Positions 4,288 to 8,866 of a DNA stretch of 64,000 bases are shown piece after piece. The notes under the pieces were generated by a model. The model was not told the origin of the DNA, did not search any database, and saw only the letters and a program-made list of their open reading frames with translations. This DNA is from Vallicoccus soli (GTDB lineage Bacteria > Actinomycetota > Actinomycetes > Motilibacterales > Motilibacteraceae). The stretch spans positions 1-64,000 of the forward strand of contig NZ_QZEZ01000001.1 of assembly GCF_003594885.1 (NCBI RefSeq), in the 5' to 3' direction. How positions within the stretch are numbered: the stretch's first letter is position 1; each line of letters opens with the position of its first letter. Made by a program: the position numbers and the translations under genes.

Positions 4288-4407
4288 CGCGGTCTCCTCG
4301 GGCTCGTCCGCCGCCATCATCCGGTACGACCGTCGCCCGGGGCCGGGCTCATCGGCGCGGGGAGCGTCCGCCCCGCGCGGGCCCCCGGTGCGCCCGCGAG
4401 GGGGCGC

Positions 4408-4770
4408 TCAGCAGCAGGACAGGGTGAGCGTGCGGCCCACCGCGCTCACCGAGTCCGGGACGAGCCGGTAGAACACGTTGGCGCCGCGGCGCTCCTTCTC
4501 GACCAGGCCGGCCTGGAGCAGCTGCTTGAGGTGGTGGCTCACCGTCGGCTCGCTCAGCCCCACGGCCGGCGCGAGGTCGCACGTGCAGGCCTCGAGCGCG
4601 GGCCGGGCCAGCAGGTAGCTGACGAGCTGCACCCGCACCGGGTCCGCGAGCGCCTTCAGCCGCACGGCGAGGGCGACCGCGGTCTCGTACGGCAGCGCCC
4701 CGGGGGCGGCGTCGAGCGGTCCGCACCGCAGCGGGGCGGTGTCCTCCAGCACGGGCAGCGTCTTGGGCAC
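4408..4770 (-). CDS. arsR: ArsR/SmtB family arsenic-responsive repressor
   Basis: A 120-residue winged-helix metalloregulator: RLKALADPVRVQLVSYLL, then the CTCDL motif (Cys62, Cys64) in the helix before the recognition helix, then GLSEPTVSHHLKQLLQAGLV and the wing RRGANVFYRL. The ELCxCDL-type cysteine pair is the classic As(III)/Sb(III) sensor; a further CC ends the protein (119-120) and may extend the site. The GTG at 4770 is chosen because the longer frame would run through the operator region and over the neighbour's promoter. Divergent from the flavoprotein-ACR3-arsC operon, which it should repress until arsenite binds. Confidence 0.9.
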   Translation of the reverse strand: MPKTLPVLEDTAPLRCGPLDAAPGALPYETAVALAVRLKALADPVRVQLVSYLLARPALEACTCDLAPAVGLSEPTVSHHLKQLLQAGLVEKERRGANVFYRLVPDSVSAVGRTLTLSCC

Positions 4771-4794
4771 GAGGGCGATGGTGCCACGCTCCTT

Positions 4795-4845
4795 GACGTA
4801 CGTCGAAGGGCTCCGGCACAGTGACCGCGTTCGACGAACGTCGAA
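4795..4845. promoter_or_regulatory. candidate double ArsR operator
   Basis: Two related palindromes sit between divergent arsR and the ars operon: GACGTACGTC (4795-4804, followed by GAA) and TTCGACG-AA-CGTCGAA (4830-4845, perfect 7-bp arms). Both share the half-site CGTCGAA, in direct repeat and inverted. Such paired 12-2-12-like dyads are what ArsR dimers bind. Inference from position and symmetry. Confidence 0.55.
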
Positions 4846-4871
4846 GGACCGCCACGGGAGGGCCACCGGCC

Positions 4872-6176
4872 ATGAGCAGCAGCACCGCGGACCTGCCCGT
4901 CGTGGTCGTCGGCGCCGGGCCCGCCGGGCTCGCGGCGGCGGCGCACCTCACGGGGTACGGCGTCCCGCACGTCGTGCTCGAGGCCGGCGACCGCGCCGGG
5001 GCGGCGGTGCTCGGCTGGGGCCACGTGCGCACCTTCACCCCCTGGCGCTGGCTCCTGGACCGCCAGGCGGCGGGGGTCCTCGCCCCGACCGGCTGGGTCC
5101 GACCGGAGGGCGAGGTGCCGCCGACCGGCCGGGAGCTCGTCGAGCGCTACCTCGAGCCCCTCGCGGCGGCGCTGGGCACCGTGCGCACGGGCGCCCGGGT
5201 GGTGGCCGTGGCCCGCGAGGGCATGGACAAGGCCCGCACGACCGGTCCGGACGCCCGCCCCCTCGTCGTGCGCGTGCGCCGCCGCGACGGCTCGCTCGAG
5301 GAGCTGCGCGCCCGCGCGGTGCTCGACGCCTCGGGCACCGGGGAGCGGTGCCCGCTCGGGGCGAACGGCCTGCCGGCGCTCGGCGAGGCCGAGGCGCGCG
5401 CGGCGGGCCTGGTCGTCGGGGGCCTGCCGGACGTGCTCGGCGCCGACCGGTCCCGCTTCGCGGGCCGCCGCACGCTCGTCGTCGGGATGGGCCACTCCGC
5501 GGCCGGCACGCTCCTCGCCCTGGCCCGTCTCGCCGAGGAGGAGCCGGGCACGGAGCTGCTGTGGGCGATCCGCTCGCGCACCCCGCGCCGGCTGTACGGC
5601 GGGGGAGCGGCCGACCAGCTCCCGGCGCGGGGCGCGATCGGCAGCCTGCTGCGCGCGCTCGTCGCGTCCGGGCGCGTGGAGCTGGTGCCCGGCTTCCGCA
5701 CCGCGCGGCTCGACCTCGTGCCCACCGCGGACGGTCCGGCCGTCGACGTCACGGGCAGCGACGGGTGGAGCGAGCGGACGCTGACCGGGGTGGCGACCGT
5801 GGTCGCGGCCACCGGCTCCCGCCCCGACCTCGACGTCCTCTCCGAGGTGCGCCTCGACCTCGACCCCGGCCTGGAGGCGCCCCGGGCGCTCGCCCCGCTC
5901 ATCGACCCCGAGCACCACTCCTGCGGCACCGTCCCGCCGCACGGCCACCACGAGCTCGCCCAGCCCGAGCCCGGGCTGTGGGTCGTGGGGTCCAAGTCGT
6001 ACGGCCGGGCGCCCACCTTCCTCGTCGCGACCGGCAACGAGCAGGTGCGCTCCGTCGTCGCCGCCCTGGCCGGCGACACCGCCGCGGCCGACGAGGTGCG
6101 CCTCGACCTGCCCGCCACCGGCGTCTGCTCGACCGACCTGCGCCCGGACCCCGAGCCCGCCGCCTGCTGCGGCTGA
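4872..6176 (+). CDS. ars-operon flavoprotein (ArsO-like FAD/NAD(P) monooxygenase or reductase)
   Basis: A 434-residue FAD protein with an N-terminal dinucleotide fold (VVVGAGPAG, residues 12-19) and a second NAD(P) fold (TLVVGMGHSAAG, about 203-214), as in class B flavin monooxygenases and thioredoxin-reductase-like enzymes; ATGSRPD marks the usual late motif. It ends CSTDL...AACCG with three cysteines in the last 20 residues. Similar flavoproteins (ArsO) occur in actinobacterial arsenic islands and are thought to help arsenic detoxification, but their reaction is poorly defined. ATG at 4872 follows GGGAGGGCCACC. First gene of the ars operon; arsB follows after 31 bp. Confidence 0.78.
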   Translation: MSSSTADLPVVVVGAGPAGLAAAAHLTGYGVPHVVLEAGDRAGAAVLGWGHVRTFTPWRWLLDRQAAGVLAPTGWVRPEGEVPPTGRELVERYLEPLAAALGTVRTGARVVAVAREGMDKARTTGPDARPLVVRVRRRDGSLEELRARAVLDASGTGERCPLGANGLPALGEAEARAAGLVVGGLPDVLGADRSRFAGRRTLVVGMGHSAAGTLLALARLAEEEPGTELLWAIRSRTPRRLYGGGAADQLPARGAIGSLLRALVASGRVELVPGFRTARLDLVPTADGPAVDVTGSDGWSERTLTGVATVVAATGSRPDLDVLSEVRLDLDPGLEAPRALAPLIDPEHHSCGTVPPHGHHELAQPEPGLWVVGSKSYGRAPTFLVATGNEQVRSVVAALAGDTAAADEVRLDLPATGVCSTDLRPDPEPAACCG

Positions 6177-6207
6177 CCGGCCCACCACCCCCACCGAGAG
6201 GCAGCAC

Positions 6208-7335
6208 GTGAGCGACGTCGTCGCCGAGACCCCGCGCCGCGGCGAGGACGCCCCCGTCCTGGCCCGGCTCTCCACGCTCGACCGGTTCCTGCCGCTCTGG
6301 ATCGTCGCTGCGATGGCCGCCGGGCTCCTGCTCGGGCGCGCCGTCGACGGCCTGGACGACGCGCTCGACGCGGTCCGGGTCGGCGACGTGAGCCTGCCCA
6401 TCGCCCTCGGCCTGCTGCTCATGATGTACCCGGTCCTGGCCAAGGTCCGGTACGGCGAGCTGGGCGCGGTCACCGGCGACCGGCGGCTGCTCGGCGCCTC
6501 GCTGGTGCTCAACTGGGTCGTCGGGCCCGCGGTGATGTTCGCCCTCGCCTGGGCCTTCCTCGCCGACCACCCCGAGTACCGCACCGGCCTCGTCATCGTC
6601 GGGCTGGCCCGCTGCATCGCCATGGTCCTCATCTGGAACGACCTGTCCTGCGGCGACCGCGAGGCCGGCGCCGTCCTCGTCGCGATCAACGCGGTGTTCC
6701 AGGTCGTGGCCTTCGGCGCGCTGGGCTGGTTCTACCTGGACCTGCTCCCCGGCTGGCTGGGGCTGGACCAGACCTCGCTGGACGTGTCGGTCTGGGACAT
6801 CACGCGCTCGGTGCTGGTGTTCCTCGGCATCCCGCTCGTCGCCGGCTACCTCACCCGCACCCTCGGCGAGCGGCGCCTCGGGCGGGAGGCGTACGAGTCC
6901 CGGGTCCTGCCGCGGATCGGCCCGTTCGCGCTGTACGGGCTCCTCTTCACCATCGTGGTCCTCTTCGCGCTGCAGGGGGGCACGATCACCAGCCGCCCCG
7001 GCGACGTCGCCCTCATCGCGGTGCCGCTGCTGGCGTACTTCGCCCTGCTGTGGGCCGGGTCGATGGTGCTCGGCCGCGCCCTCGGCCTCGGGTACGCCCG
7101 CTCCGCCACCCTGGCGTTCACCGCCGCCGGCAACAACTTCGAGCTGGCCATCGCCGTGGCGATCGGGGTCTTCGGCGTCACCTCCGGACAGGCCCTCGCC
7201 GGGGTCGTCGGCCCGCTCATCGAGGTGCCCGTCCTCGTCGGCCTGGTGTACGTGAGCCTCTGGGCCCGCCGCTTCTTCCCCGGCACAGGCACCGGGGCGC
7301 CCCCTGCCGCCACCCCCCTCGGAGGGCACCGGTGA
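6208..7335 (+). CDS. arsB: ACR3-family arsenite efflux permease
   Basis: A 375-residue membrane protein with about ten hydrophobic segments. Hallmarks of ACR3 are LARCIAMVLIWNDLSCGD with Cys136 and Cys148, TAAGNNFELAIAVAIGVFG, and the Glu in GPLIEVPVLVGLVY. It exports As(III) from the cytoplasm, driven by the proton motive force. GTG start after GAGAGGCAGCAC. It lies between the flavoprotein and arsC in the ArsR-controlled operon, so it removes the arsenite that ArsC makes. Confidence 0.95.
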   Translation: MSDVVAETPRRGEDAPVLARLSTLDRFLPLWIVAAMAAGLLLGRAVDGLDDALDAVRVGDVSLPIALGLLLMMYPVLAKVRYGELGAVTGDRRLLGASLVLNWVVGPAVMFALAWAFLADHPEYRTGLVIVGLARCIAMVLIWNDLSCGDREAGAVLVAINAVFQVVAFGALGWFYLDLLPGWLGLDQTSLDVSVWDITRSVLVFLGIPLVAGYLTRTLGERRLGREAYESRVLPRIGPFALYGLLFTIVVLFALQGGTITSRPGDVALIAVPLLAYFALLWAGSMVLGRALGLGYARSATLAFTAAGNNFELAIAVAIGVFGVTSGQALAGVVGPLIEVPVLVGLVYVSLWARRFFPGTGTGAPPAATPLGGHR

Positions 7336-7393
7336 CAGGGCACGACGCGCCGCCCGCCCCCTGACGGACCACGACCCCACCACGGAGGCCCCG

Positions 7394-7807
7394 ATGCCCG
7401 ACAAGCCCAGCGTCCTCTTCGTCTGCGTCCACAACGCCGGCCGGTCCCAGATGGCCGCCGGCTGGCTCAGCCACCTCGCCGGCGACGCGGTCGAGGTGCG
7501 CTCCGCCGGCTCCGAGCCCGAGGACCGGGTCAACCCCTCCGCGGTGCGGGCCATGGCCGAGGTCGGGATCGACATCGCCGGGCAGCAGCCGAAGGTCCTC
7601 ACCCCCGAGGCCGTGCAGGCCTCGGACGTCGTCATCACCATGGGCTGCGGCGACGCCTGCCCGGTCTTCCCGGGCAAGCGCTACCTCGACTGGAAGCTCG
7701 ACGACCCCGCCGGCAAGGACGTCGACGCCGTACGGCCCATCCGTGACGAGATCCGCCGCCGCGTCGAGGTCCTCCTGCGCGAGCTCGTCCCGGCCGGCGG
7801 CGCCTAG
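7394..7807 (+). CDS. arsC: arsenate reductase, low-molecular-weight phosphatase type
   Basis: A 137-residue LMW-PTPase fold enzyme. The P-loop is CVHNAGRSQ (Cys11, Arg17), with further cysteines in MGCGDACP (Cys85, Cys89) and the acid loop in DDPAGKD. It reduces As(V) to As(III). In actinobacteria such enzymes use mycothiol/mycoredoxin or thioredoxin; the C11-C85-C89 triple resembles the thioredoxin-coupled triad, so the reductant is open. Strong GGAGG before ATG. Last gene of the ars operon, next to the efflux pump. Confidence 0.93.
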   Translation: MPDKPSVLFVCVHNAGRSQMAAGWLSHLAGDAVEVRSAGSEPEDRVNPSAVRAMAEVGIDIAGQQPKVLTPEAVQASDVVITMGCGDACPVFPGKRYLDWKLDDPAGKDVDAVRPIRDEIRRRVEVLLRELVPAGGA

Positions 7808-7817
7808 GCTGCCGCCC

Positions 7818-8357
7818 GTGGTCGACGGCGCGGGGGTGGGGGTGCGGCTCGTCGAGCCGGCGGACGCGGGGACGCTGTCCCGGCTGCTCGTCGCCAGCCG
7901 CGAGCACCTCGCCCCCTGGGAGCCCGAGCGCGGGCCCGAGCACCTCACGCCCGCCGGGCAGGAGGCGGAGGTGGACAGCGCCCTGCGGCGGCACGCCGAC
8001 GGGACCTCCGTACCGCTCGTCATCACGCTCGACGGCGACGTCGTCGGGCGCATCACCGTCGCCGACGTCGTCCGGGGGGCGTTCCAGTCCGCGCACCTCG
8101 GCTACTGGGTGGCGCAGCACGTGACGGGTCGGGGGGTGGCGACGGCGGCGGTCGGGCTCGCCGTGCGCCTGGCGTTCGAGGAGCTCGGCCTGCACCGGCT
8201 GCAGGCGGACACGCTCGTGCACAACGTCGCGAGCCGCCGCGTCCTGGCCCGCAACGGCTTCGAGCGGATCGGGCTGGCCCCGCGCTACCTGCGCATCGCG
8301 GGCACCTGGCAGGACCACGTCCTGCACCAGCGGCTCCACGAGCCCGACCCCGCGTAG
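7818..8357 (+). CDS. GNAT acetyltransferase, RimJ/RimL type
   Basis: A 179-residue N-acetyltransferase. LGYWVAQHVTGRGVATAAV is the acetyl-CoA-binding motif A, and LHRLQADTLVHNVASRRVLARNGFERIG is the C-terminal motif B of RimJ/RimL-like enzymes, which acetylate protein N termini or small amines. GTG at 7818 is chosen because TAGGCT ends 7 bases before it, giving a leaderless mRNA; a longer frame would overlap arsC. Not obviously part of arsenic resistance. Confidence 0.87.
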   Translation: MVDGAGVGVRLVEPADAGTLSRLLVASREHLAPWEPERGPEHLTPAGQEAEVDSALRRHADGTSVPLVITLDGDVVGRITVADVVRGAFQSAHLGYWVAQHVTGRGVATAAVGLAVRLAFEELGLHRLQADTLVHNVASRRVLARNGFERIGLAPRYLRIAGTWQDHVLHQRLHEPDPA

Positions 8358-8428: not shown

Positions 8429-8866
8429 ATGGCCCGCGACGTCCAGGTGACCTTCGACTGCGCCGACCCCGCGGCCCTGGCCGCGTTCTGGGCCGAGGCG
8501 CTCGGCGCCGCCGTGCAGGCCCCGCCGCCGGGGTACGCCTCGTGGGACGAGGCCCTGGAGGCGTTCGGGGTGCCGCCGGAGCGGCGCAACGACGCCTCGG
8601 CCGTCGTGGACCCCGACGGCAGGGCGCCGCGGCTGTTCTTCCAGCGGGTGCCCGAGGGCAAGCAGGTCAAGAACCGGGTCCACCTCGACGTGCGGGCCGC
8701 GCCGGGGCTGTCCGGCGAGGAGCGGATGGCCGCGCTCGAGGCCGAGGCCGAGCGGCTCGTGGCGCTGGGCGCGCGCCGGCTGGAGCGGCACGAGCCGTCG
8801 CCCCCGCTCGACGCGGGGCACGTCGTCATGGCCGACCCCGAGGGCAACGAGTTCTGCCTCGACTGA
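8429..8866 (+). CDS. VOC / glyoxalase-like domain protein
   Basis: A 145-residue single vicinal-oxygen-chelate domain protein: VQVTFDCADPAALAAFWAEAL at the start, KNRVHLDVRA in the middle and MADPEGNEFCLD at the end, the standard actinobacterial Glyoxalase_6 pattern with His and Glu metal positions. ATG at 8429 follows GGGAGGAG. The substrate is unknown. It ends against the DUF3291 gene in a palindrome holding the latter's stop codon. Confidence 0.85.
   Translation: MARDVQVTFDCADPAALAAFWAEALGAAVQAPPPGYASWDEALEAFGVPPERRNDASAVVDPDGRAPRLFFQRVPEGKQVKNRVHLDVRAAPGLSGEERMAALEAEAERLVALGARRLERHEPSPPLDAGHVVMADPEGNEFCLD

Follow-up and report, generated by a model that had tools for sequence, protein, structure and literature searches.

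A flavoprotein with a conserved cysteine arm in an actinobacterial ars cluster, a candidate handler of trivalent metalloids

The 64,000-nucleotide stretch of Vallicoccus soli DNA analysed here (the window) holds a genuine ars cluster at 4408-7807, in which an arsR gene on the minus strand is followed, on the plus strand, by genes for a flavoprotein, acr3, and arsC (Table 1). We favour, tentatively and at somewhat under an even chance, the reading that this flavoprotein is an NAD(P)H/FAD monooxygenase or oxidase acting on trivalent arsenic or antimony, coupling capture by a cysteine arm to oxidation, and produced under ArsR control through a double operator. This reading draws on features observed here, namely a predicted fold, conserved cysteines, an arm found across the family, linkage to ars genes, and paired sites in the divergent gap. 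The reaction of several ars-operon flavoproteins is described as unsettled (for arsO, in excerpts of PMC12607644 and PMC6514093), and the four unevenly conserved cysteine positions of the present family offer a concrete and cheap handle on the direct handling of a thiol-bound metalloid.

The ars cluster and its divergent gap

All three components of an ars operon were found, i.e., an ArsR-family regulator, an arsenite permease, and an arsenate reductase, the last of these through Pfam and through NCBIfam models of LMW-PTP-type reductases that score 92-97 bits, below their cut-offs. The regulator exceeds the cut-off on both Pfam HTH_5 and NCBIfam HTH_metalloreg, and reaches 139.6 bits on the Rv2640c model (cut-off 155). 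It has a single cysteine near the N-terminus, a CTCDL motif, and a C-terminal CC, and its likely start codon was assigned by analogy with the VPK start at a related locus (L060). Apart from the Acr3 encoded in the cluster, we found no further Acr3 copy in the V. soli genome, nor a second full-length relative of the flavoprotein, an ArsM or ArsK above cut-off, or an ArsH match. A scan of positions 4300-7900 for consensus promoters and terminators returned none. Directly 3′ of arsC lies a GNAT acetyltransferase gene (7818-8354), which was rejected as ArsN1 (29.5 bits, cut-off 170) and whose highest score, obtained with a ribosomal-protein acetyltransferase model, was again below the cut-off. A glyoxalase-like protein (8429-8863), considered as ArsI, was rejected as well, with no NCBIfam match of any kind.

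Table 1 Features of the ars cluster and its divergent gap (positions in the window). Cysteine conservation is given, in order, for the actinobacterial rows (best 80 of 144 loci plus the window), the plasmid sample, and the phylum sample
Feature	Position	Strand	Remarks
arsR	4408..4770	-	120 aa; HTH_5; likely GTG start at 4770
Operator-like palindrome 1, CTTGACGTACGTCGAA	4792..4807		Imperfect; left arm matches 6/8; half-site repeated
Operator-like palindrome 2, TTCGACGAACGTCGAA	4830..4845		Perfect 6+4+6
GGGAGG, likely ribosome-binding site of the flavoprotein	4856..4861	+	Read off the sequence; 10 nt before ATG 4872
Flavoprotein gene	4872..6176	+	ATG 4872, stop 6174-6176, 434 aa; two dinucleotide-binding motifs
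Cys351 codon, in HSCGTV	5922..5924	+	81/81 rows; 18/18 rows; H[ST]CGT 20/20
Cys419 codon, in LPxTGVC, tail root	6126..6128	+	81/81 rows; 18/18 rows; GVC 20/20
Cys432-Cys433 codons, terminal CC	6165..6170	+	CC in 76/81, 15/17, and 19/20 tails
acr3, arsenite efflux permease	6208..7335	+	TIGR00832 424.3 bits, cut-off 282.8
arsC, LMW-PTP-type arsenate reductase	7394..7807	+	PF01451 (LMWPc) above cut-off

The divergent gap between arsR and the flavoprotein gene contains two operator-like palindromes, whose starts lie 38 bp apart. An earlier note on this DNA had described them as two palindromes sharing a CGTCGAA half-site: the pair is present and the half-site is repeated, but palindrome 1 is imperfect, and the interval given began inside it, at 4795, omitting three bases. 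Nor is ACGTCGAA rare by itself, with three occurrences in the window and as many in 4 of 100 shuffles. The longer pattern TTCGAC-N4-GTCGAA occurs once in the 64 kb, against 0.01 occurrences expected. When the two palindromes were scored jointly under a model of paired [AT]TCGA-N6-TCGA[AT] sites, 3 of 2000 stretches drawn at random from the window scored as well as the pair, a comparison that is less biased by the composition of the gap itself, yet uses the same site model.

Similar site pairs were found in relatives. Of the 48 loci in which ArsR is divergent, the gap test covered 23, namely the window together with 22 relatives, the 25 loci with more than 520 bp between ArsR stop and flavoprotein start having been dropped. 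Two-site scores in these 23 gaps lay above nearly all of 200 shuffles (p-values of 0.005-0.015), although these p-values are not independent and serve as description only, because the site model was drawn from the same gaps. The spacing between sites was 32-38 bp in 20 of the 23 gaps, and 26, 27, and 56 bp in the other three, the last of these (locus L016) being a loose match in both spacing and arms. The high scores of the paired sites agree with the proposal, already made in the earlier note, that ArsR acts through two sites. Under the reading we favour, the divergent ArsR would bind these operators, about 38 bp apart, and repress both promoters.

That the ArsR beside the flavoprotein ends in CC is likewise borne out by the sequence. 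Its use as a parallel for the flavoprotein tail, however, does not generalize: among the 48 ArsRs encoded beside a flavoprotein (window included), CC is found near the N-terminus in 46 and at the C-terminus in two, those of the window and of locus L060, and therefore the flavoprotein tail does not follow that of ArsR. In CgArsR-type repressors, an N-terminal CC and a third cysteine correspond to Cys15, Cys16, and Cys55 (excerpt of PMC13236881). The window ArsR, which has a single cysteine on the N-terminal side and CC at the C-terminus instead, is not of this type. In Rhodococcus and some relatives, a long ArsR-type regulator of about 290 aa lies beside the flavoprotein (loci L087, 2953-3840; L099, 2953-3822; L106; L116; and L119).

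Conserved cysteines and the Cys-rich arm

The flavoprotein ends in ...LPATGVCSTDLRPDPEPAACCG (GVCSTDL...AACCG) and contains five cysteines, C160, C351, C419, C432, and C433. The three-cysteine tail (C419, C432, and C433) on which the earlier note had focused is present, and C351, which it had overlooked, is as conserved as C419. Both residues are invariant across the actinobacterial rows, which comprise the window and the best 80 of 144 confirmed loci fetched by six search patterns, an invariance that is partly due to selection because one of these patterns contains Cys351. The two other samples are free of this selection and gave the same result. The first includes the window and 17 annotated plasmid relatives from Actinomycetota, Pseudomonadota, and Bacillota (17 of 19 plasmid loci, L102 and L103, unannotated over the stretch, having been left out). 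The second comes from 396 genomes sampled evenly across the phylum, in which a whole-protein search yielded 20 loci in 19 genomes (the V. soli genome and G194, a partial match, were left out).

The end of the tail is conserved less evenly. At least one cysteine follows GVC in 80 of the 81 actinobacterial tails (best 80 of 144 loci plus the window), the sole exception being that of locus L079, and the two plasmid tails without CC, both from Staphylococcus, still contain cysteines. In the same-alignment columns of the 18 rows formed by the window and the plasmid relatives, the C432 position is Cys in 18 and the C433 position in 14. Cysteine density in the 81 proteins (again the best 80 of 144 and the window) is 6.2 per 100 residues in tails vs. 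0.28 in cores, i.e., about twenty-fold higher. When the tails of more closely related pairs were aligned with cysteine unweighted, Cys was kept at 0.69, below F, G, H, and P, which counts against the reading we favour. Taken as a whole, cysteine conservation across the 81 rows, the 18 rows, and the 20 phylum-sample loci upholds that part of the earlier note's interpretation in which the thiol-rich tail is maintained by selection.

Counted from TGVC, the arm is 19 to 92 residues long, the 19 residues of the window protein being the shortest among the 81 (best 80 of 144 loci plus the window). A frame error as the cause of this short tail was considered and rejected, as acr3 starts 32 nt past the stop and the tail is just the shortest of its set. 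Cys160 (codon 5349-5351, in a GTGERCPLG segment) is found in the window only, the other 80 rows (best 80 of 144) having Asn at this position. A second tail motif, roughly GFATGxxHGRSGD, was detected with a loose pattern in 73 of the 81 tails (loci L004-L083; best 80 of 144 plus the window), and lies either before or after CC depending on the lineage. The window protein lacks this motif.

Cys-rich stretches are also found at the opposite end of some relatives. An N-terminal Cys-rich extension (CCG-x2-CC...AK..AGCGC or close) was identified in 19 of the best 80 of 144 loci, from a clade of Thermomonosporaceae, and the tree gives support of 100/100 to a clade of 21 that holds these 19 loci. Four Bacillota plasmid rows include cysteines near the N-terminus too, six annotated proteobacterial relatives carry a similar Cys-rich stretch at the protein C-terminus, and the window protein has the short tail form only. 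With cysteines held fixed, the N-terminal module and the proteobacterial C-terminal module aligned with a score of 52.6, compared to 36.8 ± 4.3 for shuffles, none of which (0 of 500) scored as high. Judged from this alignment, the two modules share more than their cysteine spacing, a likeness that may reflect either common descent or convergence. A plasmid search with one proteobacterial tail matched 20 records, in which the annotated features were the flavoprotein itself or an ArsK overlapping its end, and none of these 20 records contained a standalone copy of the module. Four peptides from the module gave no match in a Pfam search.

Predicted fold, proposed reaction, and alternatives

In addition to its two dinucleotide-binding motifs, the flavoprotein shows weak Pfam matches to pyridine-nucleotide oxidoreductase and FAD families, and we infer that it would use FAD and NAD(P)H. 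An AlphaFold2 model built from 59 sequences, with 58 of the 80 relative loci used, has a mean pLDDT of 85.5, with values below 50 at a loop (residues 376-379) and along the arm (416-434), and moderate values of 64-66 in the Cys351 region. The best fold matches of this predicted model are bacillithiol disulfide reductases (Z 30.5, 28.8, and 28.0), followed by small flavin monooxygenases (Z 26.0, 25.6, and 25.5) and thioredoxin reductases (about 25).

In the capture-and-oxidation reading, a flexible arm with Cys419 at its root and CC at its end would capture a trivalent species through thiol ligation and pass it in the direction of Cys351 and the flavin, to be converted there to a less toxic pentavalent form. 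The remainder would be handled by ArsC and a partner exporter, which would be Acr3 here and an ArsK-like MFS protein in many relatives. The arm cysteines belong to the class of ligands by which trivalent arsenic is held, and the flavin fold would supply the redox step. That a cysteine-bearing arm is kept across three phyla suggests arsenic capture for the enzyme, and the invariance of C351 and C419, outside the loose end of the arm, points to a role or a hand-off inside the enzyme. Direct contact between arm and arsenite, as suggested in the earlier note, is plausible, and the metalloid could equally be a methylated arsenical or antimonite. A trivalent organoarsenical, e.g., methylarsenite, would be the most likely substrate, because exporters and ArsH, ArsN1, or ArsJ, which act on organoarsenicals, are present in some relatives' clusters, and because oxidation of inorganic As(III) beside ArsC would be a futile cycle. 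It speaks against such a substrate that the V. soli genome has neither ArsM nor ArsK above cut-off, nor an ArsH match, so that a methylated compound would need an external source.

Two features of the predicted structure count against the reading we favour. Given the low pLDDT of the arm and of the 376-379 loop and the moderate values around Cys351, these cysteines may or may not lie near the flavin, and the top fold match of the model is a disulfide reductase rather than a monooxygenase. A fold shared with YpdA/Bdr or with small flavin monooxygenases proves no function in itself. FxGxxxHxxx(Y/F), the fingerprint of class B flavin-containing monooxygenases, was found in none of the 98 proteins of the family. 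The small flavin monooxygenases 4a9w, 4usq, and 4usr resemble the window protein in predicted fold (Z 24.8-26.0, 24% identity), but are shorter (330-357 residues in the match table) and have different substrates.

We consider it unlikely that the arm serves instead as an As(III) sink, chaperone, or sensor, passing arsenic to Acr3 or an ArsK-like exporter or switching the enzyme, while the flavin acts on another substrate. Such a role would fit both the frequent adjacency of exporter genes to the flavoprotein gene and the way in which arm length and module position vary while the cysteines stay (best 80 of 144 loci plus the window). Yet the invariance of C351 and C419 argues for a role within the enzyme, and a standalone module was not seen in the plasmid records matched by one proteobacterial tail.

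Because of the fold match, we also retain, as a quite unlikely reading, an NADPH-dependent thiol or disulfide reductase (YpdA- or thioredoxin-reductase-like), which would recycle thiols oxidized in arsenate reduction or free arsenic from low-molecular-weight thiols. The tail cysteines would then form a shuttle disulfide, as in selenium-type thioredoxin reductases. YpdA/Bdr (7a76) is the best fold match, with Z 30.5 over 317 residues, and ArsC or thioredoxin reductase genes adjoin the flavoprotein in some relatives. However, a cysteine in the first GxGPxG loop is essential in YpdA/Bdr, where it is part of GGGPCG in 7a76, and this cysteine is absent from the window family, with GxGPCG in 0 of 98 relatives and plain GxGPxG in 97. 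A redox-active CxxC or CxxxxC in the core (residues 41-400) was likewise found in 0 of 98. Furthermore, the lineages in which the family occurs have different main thiols, namely mycothiol, bacillithiol, and glutathione.

Drift of a low-complexity tail, dispensable for the enzyme, is very improbable: while tails align poorly, are predicted to be disordered, and in a few cases lack CC or any cysteine after GVC, their cysteines are enriched about twenty-fold over the core and recur in three phyla. Finally, it is hardly credible that the flavoprotein is an ordinary ArsO, since although the ArsO model (NF040505) is its best NCBIfam match and both are ars-linked flavoproteins, it scores 37.1 bits against a cut-off of 425, three relatives score 53-57 bits, and separate ArsO-like genes (236-281 bits, below cut-off too) lie beside the flavoprotein in Streptomyces, Rhodococcus, and Cytobacillus clusters. 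The ArsO-like label of the earlier note was abandoned on the same grounds. What the two share is that both are ars-linked NAD(P)H/FAD oxidoreductases with an unsettled reaction, ArsO being known from Streptomyces FR-008 and Rhodococcus BCP1 (excerpt of PMC6514093).

Among characterized systems, ArsV of Paracoccus sp. SY is reported to be a flavin monooxygenase oxidizing methylarsenite, with ArsW exporting the product (excerpt of PMC10080717), and ArsV also appears in excerpts of PMC11719878 and PMC9144182. Compared by description only, ArsV resembles the window flavoprotein as a flavin enzyme of an ars cluster, and an MFS-class exporter gene follows the flavoprotein gene in relatives of the window protein. 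On this comparison by description, the window family may include ArsV as characterized kin.

The capture-and-oxidation reading also has an analogue in mercury resistance. MerA is a flavoenzyme with a C-terminal CC that reduces Hg(II) via a redox-active CxxxxC, and certain MerA proteins carry an N-terminal extension that binds the metal and delivers it to the active site. The likeness is one of design, both being flavoenzymes with CC at the C-terminus and with an N-terminal extension in part of their members, and would amount to an analogy, whereas the redox-active CxxxxC of MerA is absent from 98 of 98 relatives in the window family. We regard as possible, but doubtful, a broader reading in which the family would represent arsenic flavoenzymes of three phyla, distinct from ArsO, with a movable Cys-rich arm that presents trivalent arsenic or antimony, bound to its thiols, to the flavin, as an oxidative counterpart of the MerA hand-off. 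The arm, as read from the sequences, would be mostly C-terminal, with an additional N-terminal one in the Bacillota rows and in a single actinobacterial clade. If true, a capture arm at either end would be a second solution, beside MerA, for feeding a toxic thiophile to a flavin. Searches of open literature on ArsO, ArsV, ArsK, and Cys-rich ars flavoproteins, covering a minority of the relevant journals, brought up no description of such a cysteine arm.

Genomic setting in relatives

Within the phylum, the flavoprotein was detected in 21 of 396 genomes (E ≤ 1e-50). A genome-wide tie between flavoprotein and Acr3 was sought in these 396 genomes and not found: Acr3 was detected in 122 of them, corresponding to 6 of the 21 flavoprotein genomes vs. 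116 of the 375 others, and the presence of one gene therefore does not predict that of the other, a point against the reading we favour. In five of the six genomes with both, Acr3 lies at most 4.3 kb from a flavoprotein gene, the exception being G194. An ArsK-like MFS query (E ≤ 1e-60) matched 3 of the 396 genomes, all of them flavoprotein genomes, and in each the match adjoins the flavoprotein gene (four best candidates scored per genome).

Most flavoprotein loci nevertheless sit among ars genes. Across the best 80 of 144 loci, an ORF resembling ArsR, Acr3, or ArsC is present in the flanking stretch of 73, and the ORF starting at most 350 bp downstream on the same strand is MFS-like in 30, ArsC in 6, ArsR in 2, and Acr3 in 1, with none of these in 41. 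On plasmids, an annotated MFS gene is next downstream at 10 of 17 loci, including two named ArsK, one of which was checked and scores 513 bits (cut-off 400), while at an eleventh (L095) the flavoprotein and MFS genes are separated by one small gene. An ArsR-like ORF accompanies the flavoprotein at 19 of the 20 phylum-sample loci. With ArsR near-constant and exporters differing, the core thus consists of ArsR and the flavoprotein, joined by varying exporters. If the capture arm works as proposed, it would account for the pairing of this flavoenzyme with very different exporters.

Two further kinds of neighbours were observed. Aquaglyceroporin channels can release arsenite, and a MIP (aquaglyceroporin-like) ORF is found near the flavoprotein in seven sampled loci (L104, L108, L110, L111, L114, L117, and L120, that of L114 being a weak match). 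Plasmids of Cellulosimicrobium and Ensifer (L088 and L101) carry pst genes for phosphate uptake near the flavoprotein cluster.
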